Assembly (NCBI RefSeq): GCF_016859125.1
Contig: NZ_CP069338.1
Coordinates: 1,736,001-1,800,000 of the forward strand
DNA length: 64,000 nt
Origin: Archangium violaceum
Lineage (GTDB): Bacteria > Myxococcota > Myxococcia > Myxococcales > Myxococcaceae
Reading direction: 5' to 3'
In this document: piece by piece, positions 55,226 to 62,250 of the stretch
How the letters are laid out: the number at the start of each line of letters is the position of its first letter
How positions within the stretch are numbered: position 1 is the stretch's first letter
Translations under genes and position numbers: made by a program
The notes under the pieces: model-generated
Database searches by the model: none
What the model saw: only the letters and a program-made list of their open reading frames with translations
Told to the model about the DNA's origin: nothing

Positions 55226-56302
55226 TCAGCCGAGGTCCACCCCGTGGCCCGCCTGGACATGCCCGATGTCAACCCGCCCGTCCTGCATCCGCAGGCCACC
55301 GCGGAAGGAGTGCTCCCGGATGAAGAGGTGCGTGTCCAGGTCCGCGTAGTCGAAGCCGCCCAGCCCGGCCGCGAAGTGCGCCGCGCTGCTCATGGCCAGC
55401 GTGCTCTCCACCATGCCGCCCATCATCAGCTCCAACCCGTGGGCGCGCGCCAGGTTCCACATGGCCAGCGACTCCACCACGCCGCTCTTCATCAGCTTGA
55501 GGTTGATACCGTGCGCGCCGCCCTCGCGCACCAGACGCACCACGTCCTTCACCGTGCGGGCCGACTCGTCCGCGCAGACGGGCACCCGGGACGAGCGGGT
55601 CAGCTCGGCCATGCCCTCCCAGTCCTCGCGAGGCACGGGCTGCTCGAAGAGCGCCAGGGGGATGCCCGCCGCCTCCAGCCCCGCGAGGAAGGTCCGCGCC
55701 TGCGCCACGGTGTAGCCCCCGTTGGCGTCCGCGAACAGCCGGGCCCCGGGCGCCTCCCGGCGAACAGCCACCATGCGCCGCACATCCTCCTCCGGCGAGC
55801 GCGCGCCCACCTTCACCTTGAGGGTACGGATACCCCGCGCGACGATGGCCCGGGCCGAGGAGGCCGCGTGCGCCTCGTCACCCGCCGTCACCGTCATGTC
55901 GATGTCCAGCCCGGTGCCCGCCCCTCCGAAGAAGGCGAACAGCGGCATCCGGTAGTGGCGGCCCAGCGCATCCAGCAACGCCAGCTCGATGCCGCAGCGC
56001 GCGGAGGGAGCACCCGGAAGGGCCTCACCGAGCCACGCCGCGATGGGGCGCCAGCTCCGCGCGTCCCGCCCGAGCAGCGCCTCGCGGACGGAGGCAATGG
56101 CCGCGAGTGTGCTGGCCTGCGTCTCACCGGACACCGCGGTGAGGGGTGCCGACTCGCCCAGGCCCACCGTCCCGTCCGCCAGCTTCAGGCGGATCAGCAC
56201 GTTGTTCGCCATGTCGGGCGCACCCGTGGCGATGGCGAAGGGCTCGGTGAGGGCAAGGTCCAGCGGCTCGAGGTGCAGGTCGGTGATGAGGGTCGGGAGC
56301 AT
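55226..56302 (-). CDS. L-Ala-D/L-Glu epimerase-like enolase superfamily enzyme
   Basis: The 358-residue product has the muconate-lactonizing subgroup catalytic pattern: TLKVKVG (Lys162 and Lys164), FADANGGY (Asp192), FEQPV (Glu220), CADES (Asp245) and NLKLMKSG (Lys269). The flap and specificity region near the N-terminus and MMGGMVESTLAMSS fit dipeptide epimerases that act on murein-derived L-Ala-D-Glu. Exact dipeptide specificity cannot be read. It is separated by ~18 bp from the ABC permease upstream, so it may be co-transcribed with the exporter. Confidence 0.87.
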   Translation of the reverse strand: MLPTLITDLHLEPLDLALTEPFAIATGAPDMANNVLIRLKLADGTVGLGESAPLTAVSGETQASTLAAIASVREALLGRDARSWRPIAAWLGEALPGAPSARCGIELALLDALGRHYRMPLFAFFGGAGTGLDIDMTVTAGDEAHAASSARAIVARGIRTLKVKVGARSPEEDVRRMVAVRREAPGARLFADANGGYTVAQARTFLAGLEAAGIPLALFEQPVPREDWEGMAELTRSSRVPVCADESARTVKDVVRLVREGGAHGINLKLMKSGVVESLAMWNLARAHGLELMMGGMVESTLAMSSAAHFAAGLGGFDYADLDTHLFIREHSFRGGLRMQDGRVDIGHVQAGHGVDLG

Positions 56303-56320
56303 GGGTCTCCAGGATGGGGC

Positions 56321-57073
56321 TCAGCGTAGCAGCCGCTCGAAGGTGATGACCTTCAACGCCACGAAGGTGGCCACCACCGCGCCCACCGCGAACAACACCG
56401 CGAGAAGCAGCGCGGATAGGACGGGGTTCGGTACCGCCAGCATGACGCCGAAGCACACGAGGATGACCGGACCGAGCAGCAGCCCGTTGATGTTGTTGGA
56501 CGTGCGGAAGTCGCGCGCGAGCAGGCTGACGAGCAGCGCGGTGGTGGTGGAGTAGGTCATCGCCGAGAGCAGCAACGCCAGGAGCACCAACACGAAACCG
56601 GGCGAGCCGATGCCCAACACGAGGATGAGCACCGCGTCGATGGAGAAGAGCACCAGCGTGACGGACGAGGCCAGCGCGAGCAGGGCCAGCAGCTTGGCGA
56701 GCAATATCTGTCCCACGCGCACCGGGAGCGCCACCAGCAGCTCGAGCGTGCGCGACTCGCGCTCGGTGATGAGGATGTAGCTGGCCGTCACCGAGGGTAC
56801 GATGAGCCCGCCGAGCGCGATGAACGGCACCAGCATGCCCCGCATCATCGACACGGGGTCCTGCGTGAGCTCCCGGAGCCCCGGGGGAAGCTCCACCCCG
56901 GACGGGAGGTTCACCGGCTTCGACATCCCGGTCTTCAGCCCGAGCATCTGCAGCCCCGGGACGATGACCAGCAGGATCATCGGCAGCAGCAGCGCCGACA
57001 CCATCGCGCCGCGGCTGCGCAGCAACTGGCGCCACTCCTTGCCAAAGAGGATGCGAACCTCACGCTCGAGCAT
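56321..57073 (-). CDS. ABC-2 type exporter permease
   Basis: The 250-residue membrane protein starts MLEREVRILFGKEWRQLLRSRGAM. It has six or so hydrophobic segments, including LLPMILLVIVPGLQML, LVPFIALGGLIVPSVTASYILITERESRTLELLVALPV and LALLALASSVTLVLFSIDAV. ERESRTLE is the ABC-2 family signature near the middle. Its start overlaps the ATPase gene by 14 bp. Substrate unknown, possibly a lipid, drug or peptide. Confidence 0.88.
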   Translation of the reverse strand: MLEREVRILFGKEWRQLLRSRGAMVSALLLPMILLVIVPGLQMLGLKTGMSKPVNLPSGVELPPGLRELTQDPVSMMRGMLVPFIALGGLIVPSVTASYILITERESRTLELLVALPVRVGQILLAKLLALLALASSVTLVLFSIDAVLILVLGIGSPGFVLVLLALLLSAMTYSTTTALLVSLLARDFRTSNNINGLLLGPVILVCFGVMLAVPNPVLSALLLAVLFAVGAVVATFVALKVITFERLLR

Positions 57074-57986
57074 CGTTCGCCCCCACCACGTCCAGGAAGA
57101 GGTCCTCGAGGCTCGGCGTGACGACGCGGCACTCGTAGACCTCGAGGCCCGTGGCGAGCAGCCGGCGCAACAGCTCCGGCGCCTGGGCCACCGCGTCCGC
57201 CACGTGCACGCGCACCGCGTCCTCCTCGCTCGTGGGCACGAGCCCCTGCGCGACGAGGGCCTCCATCAACCGCCCGGGACCCTGGGCCGCACGCAGCACG
57301 AGCACTGGCTGGATGCGCTGGCGCAGGGTGGCGATGCGCTCGTGCAGCAACACCCGGCCCTGGCGGAGGATGATCGCGCTCTCGCAGAGCGCCTCGGCCT
57401 CGGCCAGGTTGTGCGTGCACAGCAGCACCGTGCGTCCGGGCATCACCTTGCGCAGGAAGGTATGCACCTCGCGCGTGGCGACGGGGTCCAAGCCCACCGT
57501 GGGCTCGTCCAGCAACAGCACCTCCGGCGAGGAGACGAGCGCGGCGGCCATGGACAGCCGGCGCTGCATGCCTCCAGACAGCTCCGCCATCCGCCGCGCG
57601 CGGAAGGAGCCGAGGCCAAAGGCGTCCACCACCTCGGCGATGTTCCCGCTGCCGTACAGGTCGCGCACCAGCTGGAGGTAGTCGTCCACCGTGAGATCCC
57701 TGTACATGCCCGGGGACTGGGGGACGATGCCCACGCGCCGCTTGGCCCCGAGGAAGTCGGGGTCCTCGACGCCGAGCCCGAAGAGGCTCACCCGTCCCGA
57801 CGAGGGCCGGAGCGCACCGGTGAGAAGGCGGATGAGGGTCGTCTTCCCCGCGCCGTTGGGGCCGAGCAGACAGGCCCGCTCACCCGGAGCGATCCGGAAG
57901 CTGACCTGGTCGAGCGCCTGGATGCCACCGGGGTACACCTTGGTGACGCCGGAGACCTCCAGGGGCACGTGAACGTTTTCCGCCAA
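57060..57986 (-). CDS. ABC-2 type exporter ATPase
   Basis: A TTG at 57986 follows GGGAGG by 8 bases and places the start just before the conserved domain, giving 308 residues; the open frame reaches 58109. It has Walker A LLGPNGAGKTTLIRLL, signature LSGGMQRRLSMAAAL, Walker B VLLLDEPTVGLDP and switch His in LLCTHNL. A C-terminal ~70-residue regulatory region (VLRAAQGPGRLMEALVAQG) is typical of DrrA/CcmA-like exporters. It pairs with the overlapping permease. Confidence 0.9.
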   Translation of the reverse strand: MAENVHVPLEVSGVTKVYPGGIQALDQVSFRIAPGERACLLGPNGAGKTTLIRLLTGALRPSSGRVSLFGLGVEDPDFLGAKRRVGIVPQSPGMYRDLTVDDYLQLVRDLYGSGNIAEVVDAFGLGSFRARRMAELSGGMQRRLSMAAALVSSPEVLLLDEPTVGLDPVATREVHTFLRKVMPGRTVLLCTHNLAEAEALCESAIILRQGRVLLHERIATLRQRIQPVLVLRAAQGPGRLMEALVAQGLVPTSEEDAVRVHVADAVAQAPELLRRLLATGLEVYECRVVTPSLEDLFLDVVGANDARA

Positions 57987-58087
57987 GCGATCGTCCTCCC
58001 ACTCGCACGGCGGACATACCACGAGGGAGCGGCCTTGCATCCGGCCACGCACATGGGCAAGAGCATGCGAGGAGAGACCCACGCGCC

Positions 58088-58516
58088 ATGAATCGAAGCC
58101 CAGGAACATGGCCGGTCCCGGGAGCGCGGCGGCTCAAGGGCACTCCCGCCGCCCCCGCCGAGGCCACGCCCGCCCGTCAATCCGAGGAGGAGACCGAGTC
58201 CCGGGCCCCGGAGACGCCGCTGTGCTGCGTGCGCTGCGGCCACGTCATCACGCGTGAGCGGGACCGCACCACGGTCAACGGCCGCCACGCCCACACCCGC
58301 GTCAACCCGTCCGGGTTCGTCTTCCACTTCGGCTGCTTCGCCCGGGCCGAGGGCTGCCTCGCCATCGGTCCTCCCACCGCGGAGGCGAGCTGGTTCCCGG
58401 GCTTCGTCTGGCGGATCGCCCTGTGCGCCGCGTGCAAGACCCACCTGGGATGGGCCTTCCGCGGCGAGAGCGACTTCCTGGGGCTGGTGCTGGACCGCCT
58501 CACCGCCCCGAGTTGA
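58088..58516 (+). CDS. Cereblon-like CULT domain protein
   Basis: The 142-residue protein is divergent from the ABC exporter. After a disordered ~40 residues it is a single CULT (thalidomide-binding) domain. Zinc ligands are Cys47/Cys50 (CVRC) and Cys113/Cys116 (CAAC). The aromatic cage is Trp102 (SWFPGF), Trp108 (VWRIAL), Trp122 and Phe124 (LGWAF). Spacing 6-14-2 equals that of human cereblon W380/W386/W400/F402; HTRVNPSGFVFHFGCF matches the preceding strands. Bacterial homologues such as the Magnetospirillum protein bind uridine-like ligands and cyclic imides. The natural ligand and role are not known. Confidence 0.93.
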   Translation: MNRSPGTWPVPGARRLKGTPAAPAEATPARQSEEETESRAPETPLCCVRCGHVITRERDRTTVNGRHAHTRVNPSGFVFHFGCFARAEGCLAIGPPTAEASWFPGFVWRIALCAACKTHLGWAFRGESDFLGLVLDRLTAPS

Positions 58517-58528
58517 GCATCCCCTCGC

Positions 58529-60265
58529 TCAGTCCACGTGAACGAGCACGTCGCTGAAGTACTGGCTGGAGGACGACACGTCCTTGCAGGACGTCCCGTT
58601 GATCAGGTTCGAGCCCATGTCGAACACGACCTGCACGTCCTTCGAGCCGGGATACGGGATGACCACCTCCGGAGCGGAGTTCGATGGCGCGGTCAGCTCC
58701 CGCACCTTCACCGGCGCGCTGCTCGCGTCGCCGCTCCATTTCCAGAGCGCGAACGGCCCGCTGCTCTCGTCATGCGGACCACTGAGGATCAGCACCGCCT
58801 GATGGGCCTCCGACCACGCCATGCCCCGGATGCCGTACCCACCCAGGTTCACCAGGATGGCCCGGCCGAACTTCGCCCTGGCACCCGAGATCACCGCGTC
58901 CGGGTTGGTCAGCGTGACCATCAGCGCACTCGAACCGGACTGGGGGTTGCGGAAGCCAATCACCAGACCGCCGGTGGGCAGCGCCGCCAGCCCCTCGACG
59001 TTGGTTCCACTCAACTTCGGCGCCAGCTCCGCCACCGTGTCCTCCGACAGCCGCGAGCGCTCATTCAGCAGCGAGATGACCGAGGTGTTCGCGTCGAGCC
59101 AGTTGGACGCGTCCAGCATGTCCTTCAGCAGGTTCGAATAGGTCCCCGCGACCTGGAGCGAGACAGCGGGCACCGTGCCCGAAATGTCGATGGCGAAGAA
59201 CTTGTAGCGCGAGGTCTCCAGCTCCCCGTTCTTGTTCCGCGCCTGGGAGCCAGTCACGTAGATGCGGTTGCCCACGCGAGCGGCGTCCTCGAAGTCCGCC
59301 TCGTCCGAGGACGAGAGGCCCAGCGCGCTGCTCAGGTCCTTGCTCTGGACCGACGCGGCACTCGTGCCCCGGGTGAAGATGCGCGCGGACTGGGACTCGT
59401 CGTTGAAGTTCAAGAAGTGGGTGGAGTCGATCCACACCCCGCCGGAGCCGTCGCAGGTCCCCTTGTACGTCCCCGAGACCGGAGCAGGAGGAGTACCGGC
59501 GTCACCGCCGCCCGTGCCCGCATCCGTGCCGCCACCGGGCATGTCCCAGGTCACGGTCAGCTTCGGGCGGGAGGACCGGGTCGAGTACTCACTGGAGCGG
59601 ATCTCCAGCCGGTTGTCGTTGTCCTTGTTGGCGATGATGACCCCGTGGTTGCTGGAGGGCGTGGTCACCCACTTCTGCACCACCTCGAGTCCCCTCGCGT
59701 TCAGCGTCACGGTGTACGTCCCCGTCGAGGAGGCCCGGATGGAGCCCAGCGAGGTCGTGTCCCGGTCGCCACTGCCATCCGCGCCATTCGAGGCCCAGTC
59801 GTGGCTGCTGTCCGCCCGCTCCCACGTGACCTGGCTCTCGGTCCACGCGCGCGTCAGCTCGTAGAAGTCGTAGGTCTGATCCGCCTTGTCGGACACCGTG
59901 ACGACGATCGACGCGGAGCGGACGATCGCGTTCGCGGGGATGCTCGACACGTCCCACTGCAGCAGGATGTAGTTCTCGTTGCCGCTCCCCGCGGGCGTGT
60001 CGCCGCTCGCCGAGATGCTGGTGTCGCCGCCGTGGTTGTCGTCGGAGTCCTCCTCCTCGATCATCGAGTCGCGGGTGCCCGCGTAGCTCGAAGACGGAGA
60101 CACCCCGTCCTGGAACGACGTGCTCTGCGCGCCCGTCAGCTCCTGACCCCCGAGGAAGAAGCCGGACTCCGTATCATTTCCGCCAAATTCCTCCTGCCCA
60201 CACCCCGCTGCGAGCAAGAAGCACGCGGCCAGAGCACCGGTGACCGGAACCATCCATCTACGCAT
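58529..60265 (-). CDS. Lipoprotein with DNRLRE and DUF3616-like domains
   Basis: The 578-residue protein starts at ATG 60265, 5 bases behind GGGAG, and has a lipobox ending in Cys22 (CFLLAAGC). Residues ~50-235 are a DNRLRE domain: QDGVSPSSSYAGTRDSMIEE, ILLQWDVSSIPANAIVRSA, WTESQVTWERADSSHDWA and the namesake DNRLEIRSSE. An Asp-Ala-Gly linker follows, then residues ~265-578 resemble DUF3616 (FLNFNDESQSARIFTRGT, GGLVIGFRNPQSGSSALMVTL). It is probably a surface adhesin or matrix protein. Confidence 0.83.
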   Translation of the reverse strand: MRRWMVPVTGALAACFLLAAGCGQEEFGGNDTESGFFLGGQELTGAQSTSFQDGVSPSSSYAGTRDSMIEEEDSDDNHGGDTSISASGDTPAGSGNENYILLQWDVSSIPANAIVRSASIVVTVSDKADQTYDFYELTRAWTESQVTWERADSSHDWASNGADGSGDRDTTSLGSIRASSTGTYTVTLNARGLEVVQKWVTTPSSNHGVIIANKDNDNRLEIRSSEYSTRSSRPKLTVTWDMPGGGTDAGTGGGDAGTPPAPVSGTYKGTCDGSGGVWIDSTHFLNFNDESQSARIFTRGTSAASVQSKDLSSALGLSSSDEADFEDAARVGNRIYVTGSQARNKNGELETSRYKFFAIDISGTVPAVSLQVAGTYSNLLKDMLDASNWLDANTSVISLLNERSRLSEDTVAELAPKLSGTNVEGLAALPTGGLVIGFRNPQSGSSALMVTLTNPDAVISGARAKFGRAILVNLGGYGIRGMAWSEAHQAVLILSGPHDESSGPFALWKWSGDASSAPVKVRELTAPSNSAPEVVIPYPGSKDVQVVFDMGSNLINGTSCKDVSSSSQYFSDVLVHVD

Positions 60266-60388
60266 GTGTTCTCCCTTACGCCTGGGGGGCGGACGGTTGC
60301 CCATCCAGGCGCATGCGCAGTGTCACGATTCGGTCGAAATCCAATGGAGCCCCCGCGACATGCACGGGGGCTCCCCTTCCGCCAACCG

Positions 60389-62047
60389 CTACGGGATGAG
60401 CGGGGCGAGCGCGGGCGCGATCAGCGTCTGCTTCGCCTGCTGTACCGTCGTCCAGTCATCCTGGAGCACGCCCCCGGTATCATCGGAGTTGGGATTGAGC
60501 GACCAGACGGAGAAGCTCATCCCGTTGCCCTTGAGATAGCTCGAGAGCGTCTGGAGCCACTGGCGGTCGGAGTCGATCTGCAGCTTCGTGCCGAACTCAC
60601 CCACGAAGACCGGAGCACGGTTCTCCTTCACGAGGAAGCCCCAGGTGGCATCCCACACGCCTGGCAGGTTGGCCGGGTAGCCGGTGGCCGGCTTGTTCTG
60701 GAACCAGGGCTGCCCGTAGACGCTCTCCGGGTAGTCGTGCGTCGAGTACACCACGCGCCCCGCCACGTTCAGCCGCACCGGGTAGTCGCGCGCACCCCGC
60801 AGGTTGCCGCCCCACCAGTACCAGTTGCCCTGGTAGATCTCGATGCCCTCCACGATGATGAGCAGGTCCGGGTTCTCGGCGAGGATGGCGTTGCCCGCAC
60901 GCTCGGCGGCGAGCCTCCAGTCCGTATCGAGGTTGCCATCACCCCACGTGGCACGGCCGTGCGGCTCGTTGTGCAGGTCCATGCCCACCACGGTGGGATC
61001 GCCCTTGTAACGGCGCGCGAGCATCTTCCAGTCGTCGATCCACGCCTGCTCCTCCGTGGCGCGGCTGTTGCGGTACCAGAGCTCCGACTGACTGTTGGAG
61101 TCCGGGCGGTGGCGGTCGAGCACGACGCGCAGCCCGCGCGCCTTCGCCGCGGCGATGACGCGGTCCATCACCTCGAGCGAGGTGAGCCCACGCAGCTCGG
61201 GGTTGATCGTGTAGCTGATGTCCAACGGGTTCGGGTACACGCCCGGGCGCAGGATGTCGTTGCTGAAGGGCAGGCGCAGCATGTTGTAGCCAAGCGACTT
61301 CACCTGATCGAGCAGGCTCCCCAGCGTGCGCGTGTGCAGGCCATAGGGCACGCGTGAAGGACCCTCGAAGCCGAACCAGTTCACGCCCGTGAGCCGCACC
61401 TCCTGTCCATTGGACGCGTAGATGCGCGCGCCCTGCGTATGCAGGTAGCCCGCGGCCCCGCCCGGAGTCCCCGCGTCGGTGCCGGTGCCGGCATCCGTGC
61501 CCGCGTCCACTCCCGCGTCCGTGCCCGCGTCCACTCCCGCGTCGGTGCCGGTGCCGGCATCCACTCCTGCGTCCGTGCCCGCGTCCGTGCCGATGTCCGT
61601 TGCGTACACACCGTCCGCCGCGCACAGCGGCAGCGTGATCCCGGGCTGATAGGACACCTCGCACGAGGTGGCCGTACCGCCGCTGTTCACCGCGCGCACC
61701 CGCACACGCGAGCCGCCAAACCCCTGAGAGCGCGTCCACACGTTCGCATCCCAGGCGGCGGGGTTCATCTCGGTCCAGGCACCACCATTCACCGACACCT
61801 CGACCCGCCCTGGAGCCGGATCCGCCGTCACGCGGGTCTCCATCCACCAATCATTGCTCGGTGTCTGGATGAAGAATGACACTGGCACCCGCTGCGCCGG
61901 CTGCACCTGCGGCGGGTCTTGCGCCACGTCTTGTGCTTCCCCCGGCGCGGGCTGCACCTGCGGCTGGTCTGGTGCCTCCTCCGACGCGGGTCCTCCACAC
62001 GCCGCGGCGAATACCGCGATCCCCAGGAACATCCCAAATGTCTTCAT
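60389..62047 (-). CDS. Glycoside hydrolase family 5 endoglucanase-like lipoprotein
   Basis: The 552-residue protein starts at ATG 62047, 6 bases behind GGAGG, and has a lipobox ending in Cys17 (AVFAAAC). A beta-sandwich (~50-140) and a Thr-Asp-Ala-Gly repeat linker (~155-200) precede the GH5 barrel: YLHTQGARIYASNGQEVRLTGVNWFGFEG, VVLDRHRPDS, GMDLHNEPHG with the acid/base Glu, YSTHDYPESVY and PVFVGEFGT with the nucleophile Glu. GH5 members hydrolyse beta-1,4-glucans or mannans; lipid anchoring suggests work at the cell surface. Most likely an endoglucanase; mannanase cannot be excluded. Confidence 0.9.
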   Translation of the reverse strand: MKTFGMFLGIAVFAAACGGPASEEAPDQPQVQPAPGEAQDVAQDPPQVQPAQRVPVSFFIQTPSNDWWMETRVTADPAPGRVEVSVNGGAWTEMNPAAWDANVWTRSQGFGGSRVRVRAVNSGGTATSCEVSYQPGITLPLCAADGVYATDIGTDAGTDAGVDAGTGTDAGVDAGTDAGVDAGTDAGTGTDAGTPGGAAGYLHTQGARIYASNGQEVRLTGVNWFGFEGPSRVPYGLHTRTLGSLLDQVKSLGYNMLRLPFSNDILRPGVYPNPLDISYTINPELRGLTSLEVMDRVIAAAKARGLRVVLDRHRPDSNSQSELWYRNSRATEEQAWIDDWKMLARRYKGDPTVVGMDLHNEPHGRATWGDGNLDTDWRLAAERAGNAILAENPDLLIIVEGIEIYQGNWYWWGGNLRGARDYPVRLNVAGRVVYSTHDYPESVYGQPWFQNKPATGYPANLPGVWDATWGFLVKENRAPVFVGEFGTKLQIDSDRQWLQTLSSYLKGNGMSFSVWSLNPNSDDTGGVLQDDWTTVQQAKQTLIAPALAPLIP

Positions 62048-62250
62048 GCACGACCTCCGTGGTCCGGCGCCCCCCAAACGCCTCGGCATTCATAGACCAA
62101 AACCAGACGAAAATCATGAAGACCTATAAAATTCGAATATCGAGAATGATCAGCGATTACGAAACACACATACGCCAACCTCACAGCTGAGCCTCTTACT
62201 TCTCGATTTCTGGATTTCTCAGACCGCGAACCCGCTCCGAGAGCGTTTGT
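62048..62250. promoter_or_regulatory. A/T-rich upstream region of the GH5 gene
   Basis: About 200 bp, with 62090-62220 clearly richer in A/T than the rest of the window (for example GACCTATAAAATTCGAATAT). It is upstream of the minus-strand GH5 gene and probably contains its promoter, but no -35/-10 pair is certain. Confidence 0.4.

Follow-up and report, generated by a model that had tools for sequence, protein, structure and literature searches.

The window analysed here is a 64,000-nucleotide stretch of the Archangium violaceum genome (assembly GCF_016859125.1, contig NZ_CP069338.1, positions 1,736,001 to 1,800,000), and towards its end, on the forward strand, lies a gene for a stand-alone CULT protein, a bacterial relative of cereblon. 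The gene is a single open reading frame (ORF; 58088-58516, +, from ATG to TGA) of 142 amino acids, and the protein is encoded once in the 12.68-Mb genome. Its closest named relatives in our genome collection belong to Archangium lansinium (85% identity) and A. violaceum (82% identity). An N-terminal tail of residues 1-42 (58088-58213, +), recognised from the alignment, its substitution pattern and low model confidence, precedes the CULT domain, which occupies the C-terminal ~98 residues (approximately residues 44-142; 58217-58513, +) and was delimited by phmmer and by the structures that a domain-only model matched in Foldseek and VIA-align. The domain contains, all on the forward strand, a first zinc motif, C47-x2-C50 (58226-58237), an NPxG hairpin tip, N73-P74-S75-G76 (58304-58315), an aromatic cage of W102, W108 and W122 with F124 as the floor residue (58391-58459), and a second zinc motif, C113-x2-C116 (58424-58435). 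The protein ends 20 residues past W122, and 17-30 residues follow the equivalent Trp across the 41 loci surveyed below, which bears out the initial annotation of a stand-alone CULT domain with an N-terminal tail in a myxobacterium. Scans of 57850-58620 for promoters and terminators, and of 56000-61000 for Rfam families, returned no match.

Comparison with proteins of known structure identified the domain. In a phmmer search against the sequences of solved structures, residues 45-139 matched MsCI4, the CULT protein of Magnetospirillum gryphiswaldense (4v32/4v2y), with an expect value (E) of 4.1e-24 and 41 identities among 95 aligned residues, while approximately residues 43-126 matched cereblon, at best with an E value of 6.2e-14 and in many full-length chains at about 3e-12. 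Cysteines C47/C50 and C113/C116 pair with the zinc cysteines of MsCI4 without a gap, and, in the numbering of PMC8900816, W102, W108 and W122 correspond to MsCI4 Trp79, Trp85 and Trp99 and to human Trp380, Trp386 and Trp400. The residues around the imide site likewise align with MsCI4, with E99, A100 and W102 at the positions of Glu76, Phe77 and Trp79. F124 falls at the position that distinguishes wild-type MsCI4 from its Y101F mutant (4v32), Tyr101 being described as the base of the MsCI4 cage (PMC8900816). Both are stand-alone CULT proteins that agree in their zinc residues, their cage residues and the spacing of these (MsCI4 is MGR_0879, PDB 4v2y); they differ in the floor residue (F124 versus Tyr101), at A100 (Phe77) and F106 (Tyr83), and in the loop before F130, which is three residues shorter in the window protein.

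Profile searches were less telling: the Pfam scan of the 142-residue protein gave no domain above its cut-off, Yippee-Mis18 (PF03226) scoring 15.9 bits where 26.6 are required, in a match confined to residues 105-125, and no NCBIfam model reached its cut-off either. The profile match that the initial annotation had proposed as a check therefore stayed below threshold in both collections, whereas the match to the sequences of solved cereblons was decisive. A 63-base DNA pattern encoding W-F-x-G-x2-W-x4-C-x2-C-x2-H-x-G-W occurred once in the window and in none of 100 window shuffles; in the 12.68-Mb genome it again occurred once, and the reversed control gave no occurrence. It is virtually certain that the ORF encodes a functional CULT domain, and the protein is a further myxobacterial member of the known bacterial single-domain CULT group, so that the original identification of a bacterial cereblon-like CULT protein is confirmed.

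The family was found in a minority of the genomes searched, and its zinc and cage residues are conserved. CULT proteins were matched in 36 of 147 genomes in a search at class level and, at E <=0.001, in 47 of the 195 genomes of the phylum Myxococcota. We aligned 42 sequences, namely the window protein, 40 other Myxococcota proteins and MsCI4. All 42 rows keep the four Cys and the three Trp, position 124 is aromatic throughout (F37/Y4/W1), N73 and P74 are each present in 41 rows, and the NPxG tip is found in 35. The zinc cysteines match in position, as first suggested. The 6-14-2 spacing of the cage aromatics, which the initial annotation had read as a reproduction of the human arrangement, is indeed present in the window protein (W102/W108/W122/F124); because all 42 rows share it, it is a signature of the family rather than a special human likeness. 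Six of the 47 matched genomes lie outside this alignment (G004, G092, G142, G146, G162 and G192). Three of them, G004, G092 and G162, have the full set of zinc and cage residues, and those in G142 and G146 appear to be chance matches. In G192 (L102:527-799, -) the C-terminal half of a CULT domain (HLGWQF...FYGLL) is in frame, but what precedes it does not read as CULT in that frame, which may reflect a disrupted gene or a mistake in the assembly. Five rows of family f2 (L066, L067, L075, L076 and L077) carry Tyr-Trp at positions 99-100, at the ligand backbone contact, where most rows have Glu at 99; from sequence, this clade may have an altered ligand specificity.

By a simple count between the window protein and six relatives, the ratio of non-synonymous to synonymous substitution (dN/dS) is 0.14-0.25 for the domain, compared with 0.19-0.55 for the N-terminal tail. 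The CULT domain is under purifying selection, and the gene is being maintained as a protein gene. The tail is variable and probably disordered, residues 5-41 having a predicted local distance difference test (pLDDT) score below 50 in the weak full-length model. No signal-like hydrophobic stretch was seen in it by eye, and for this reason we infer a cytoplasmic location.

Structure prediction gave models of low confidence. The full-length model, with a pLDDT of 52, was not good enough for further use, so a domain-only AlphaFold2 model (pLDDT 64), built with six close sequences as input, was used for fold matching alone. With this weak model Foldseek returned cereblon chains first (4v31, E 1.7e-7, template modelling score 0.66), and VIA-align matched 5amh with a Z score of 9.6 and a root-mean-square deviation of 4.0 Å over 99 residues. 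The least certain residues of the model, 29-39 and 41-43, correspond to residues 69-79 and 81-83 of the protein and include the NPxG hairpin, the equivalent of which in MsCI4 is described as ordered only with ligand (PMC4449219). As the alignment behind the model is shallow, this overlap may be a coincidence.

The neighbourhood of the gene was surveyed at 41 loci, with genes called by a crude script based on GC position. Even the CULT gene was picked up by the script at only 29 of the 41 loci, so the numbers of shared neighbours are minimum values; some loci were also short or had the CULT gene near a contig end (L079, L057, L058 and L069 among them). In the window, the divergent neighbour is an ABC transporter ATPase with a DrrA-like C-terminal domain (57060-58091, -; its true start probably lies inside this ORF), followed by an ABC-2 family permease (56321-57073, -), both recognised by Pfam and both outside the CULT system as we delimit it. 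An ABC-2 ATPase and/or permease stands beside the CULT gene in seven of the 41 loci, in Archangium and one close genus (g20), and neither was found beside the 82%-identical CULT gene of genus g6 (L045). The exporter, which had been offered as the functional context, is thus not borne out as such. Among the script-called genes no neighbouring family was seen in more than seven loci. With the widest non-CULT families at 7/41, we rejected the neighbourhood as functional evidence. The other neighbours scanned included FHA, GNAT, esterase, endonuclease V, CorA, cupin, radical SAM and SUFU-domain proteins, the last encoded directly upstream of the CULT gene on the same strand in one locus (L059:8226-8774). 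In the window, a mandelate racemase/muconate lactonizing protein of the enolase superfamily (55226-56302, -) adjoins the ABC-2 permease, a place it keeps in four Archangium relatives (L041-L044). Convergent with the CULT gene lies a gene for a lipoprotein-like CBM96/DUF3616 protein (58529-60304, -) and, beyond it, one for a GH5 cellulase (60389-62089, -).

In one genus the CULT gene also comes and goes by itself. In this genus, g19, it is present in seven of 27 genomes, where a GNAT gene adjoins it in all seven and an FHA gene was called on its other side in six. Twelve of the 20 CULT-negative genomes of this genus were examined: in seven of them both FHA and GNAT persist in that region, separated by 60 bp in one and by 467-2394 bp without significant CULT similarity in the other six, and in the remaining five FHA was not within the fetched stretch. 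The gain or loss in g19 involves the CULT gene alone. The CULT tree, in which 13 of 39 inner branches are well supported and several branches are long, was used solely to place the window protein and L045, both of which fall among the Archangium relatives (support for L045, 97/90). Because the L045 copy lies among Archangium CULT proteins and its genome, G072, is the sole g6 genome among the CULT-positive genomes of the class, CULT may have moved alone into genus g6. A tblastn search of plasmids and phages gave no CULT match, nor did an exact-motif scan of viral contigs.

The function we propose follows the solved homologues. A zinc-pinned beta-tent would hold the cage of W102, W108 and W122 over F124; a ring resembling glutarimide, succinimide or uracil would bond through its imide NH and C=O to the backbone of A100 and W102; and ligand binding would fold both the W102 loop and the NPxG hairpin, making the domain a ligand-dependent folding switch, much as one third of the MsCI4 domain is described as folding only upon ligand binding (PMC4449219). 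A cyclic-imide or uracil-type ligand is a sensible expectation because MsCI4 has been solved, judging by structure titles, with deoxyuridine (4v31) and with an aminoglutarimide degron peptide (8bc7), and by this analogy we predict with good confidence that the window protein binds a ring of this type. With less assurance, the native ligand would be a C-terminal cyclic imide on damaged proteins, and the protein would act as a stand-alone reader or scavenger of this mark, without ubiquitin. In eukaryotes such C-terminal imides are described as something that PIMT can generate and cereblon reads (PMC13001092), and the A. violaceum genome encodes one PIMT-family match. Protein C-terminal cyclic imides are accordingly named here as the putative native ligand, by analogy and tentatively, at somewhat less than an even chance; the favoured statement as a whole, a cytoplasmic CULT reader with its native ligand included, is offered with similar reserve. 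Bolder still, and improbable in our estimation, is the idea that bacterial CULT proteins are a ubiquitin-free forerunner of the cereblon pathway, which would read and fold around C-terminal cyclic imides of damaged or PIMT-treated proteins while the flexible N-terminal tail would pass the marked protein on to a bacterial protease or repair enzyme.

Several observations weigh against a cyclic-imide reader. The position of human Tyr384 and MsCI4 Tyr83, here F106, varies widely in the alignment (F15/Y9/H8/C7/R1/S1/M1), and the Ala mutant of Tyr384 in human cereblon is reported to be deficient in thalidomide binding (PMC4449219). Both models are of low confidence (pLDDT 52 and 64), and the geometry of the cage is a prediction from sequence. 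PIMT does not discriminate, because 111 of the 142 class genomes have a member of the family; among the 36 CULT-matched class genomes it was found in 33, G092 and G134 being listed without it and G142, a chance CULT match, being unseen among the matches listed. No protease, adaptor or repair gene recurs beside CULT across the examined loci. Finally, uracil or uridine would, by analogy, fit the same cage. On the ubiquitin system, which the initial annotation took to be lacking, a search for the E2 family was uninformative, because it gave no match in the genome and likewise none in its 14 controls.

A uracil-type metabolite is indeed the main rival to a cyclic-imide ligand. Rather than reading a protein mark, the protein could sense or buffer a small molecule in its free form, be it uracil, uridine, dihydrouracil, hydantoin or an imide among natural products. 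Uracil and uridine are reported to bind the Magnetospirillum protein (Lupas 2015, PMC4287342), MsCI4 structures include, by their titles, complexes with deoxyuridine (4v31) and hydantoin (5oh7), and no widely recurrent partner gene was found beside CULT. Yet no pyrimidine- or imide-metabolism gene was found by Pfam among the scanned neighbours, and we consider this account possible, if on the unlikely side. An endonuclease V gene, for repair of deaminated bases, lies downstream of CULT on the same strand in two genera (L052:8397-9101 and its homologue in L053). As MsCI4 binds uracil, this neighbour is suggestive, but the cluster was not seen in the other surveyed loci. Alternatively, the beta-tent could be structural or regulatory, its cage kept for contact with a protein, through a linear motif or a modified side chain, and not for an imide. 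Similar cages in unrelated proteins are described as binding methylated lysine or arginine and terminal residues; the same source, however, reports choline, carnitine and betaine to be without interaction in the CULT model system (PMC4287342), and the alignment of the imide-site residues with MsCI4 makes such a role unlikely.

Two further accounts, each of which we hold to be very improbable, would tie the protein to a partner gene. As an accessory of the ABC-2 exporter, it would serve in self-protection or as a cargo receptor for an exported natural product, in keeping with the transporter genes beside it in the window and six relatives. These genes are nonetheless divergent from CULT, not in an operon with it, and were found at only the seven loci noted above; neither was seen in the neighbourhood of L045 even though its CULT protein groups with those of Archangium, and in g19 the flanking genes are FHA and GNAT instead. 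As one half of a split cereblon, it would partner a stand-alone LON substrate-binding-domain protein, for which there is a candidate of 223 amino acids (LON_substr_bdg) at G000:C1:2022853-2023521 (L083). The LON and CULT genes are, however, ~229 kb apart, 122 of the 142 class genomes have a LON homologue, among them 14 of the 16 in genus g5, where no genome is CULT-positive, and G005, G084 and G134 have CULT without a LON match at 1e-20.

Cereblon joins a LON and a CULT domain, and the Yippee/Mis18 family (PF03226) is described as a homologous beta-tent family (Lupas 2015, PMC4287342). The window protein resembles cereblon over residues 43-126 and in its Trp/Trp/Trp/Phe spacing, which is that given for the human protein by the initial annotation. 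It differs in consisting of only 142 amino acids, without a LON domain (Pfam found none in it, the genome's three LON-domain matches lying elsewhere) or a DDB1-binding part, and in having no known ubiquitin ligase role; its similarity to Yippee/Mis18 is below threshold and confined to the region given above. The bacterial single-domain group was defined together with the CULT family by Lupas 2015 (PMC4287342) as mainly delta-proteobacterial, with Haliangium ochraceum (WP_012831591.1) in the alignment, and by that description the window protein shows no difference in category from this group. Our literature searches, some of which were swamped by unrelated matches, found no work on the function of any bacterial CULT gene. 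Within the literature searched, what is new here is the count of invariant residues across Myxococcota, the absence of a neighbour common to many loci and the gain or loss of CULT as a single gene.

Cereblon, the target of thalidomide, is also a main point of attack for drugs that work by targeted degradation, while its natural role is understood only in part. The CULT proteins of bacteria have the same pocket without the ligase, and the window protein adds to them a member with a phenylalanine floor as in human cereblon, where MsCI4 has a tyrosine. Since the CULT gene stands and moves alone in this survey, its function must be answered by biochemistry and genetics rather than by gene neighbourhood, and the purpose of the pocket could come to light through genetic work in a bacterium suited to it.
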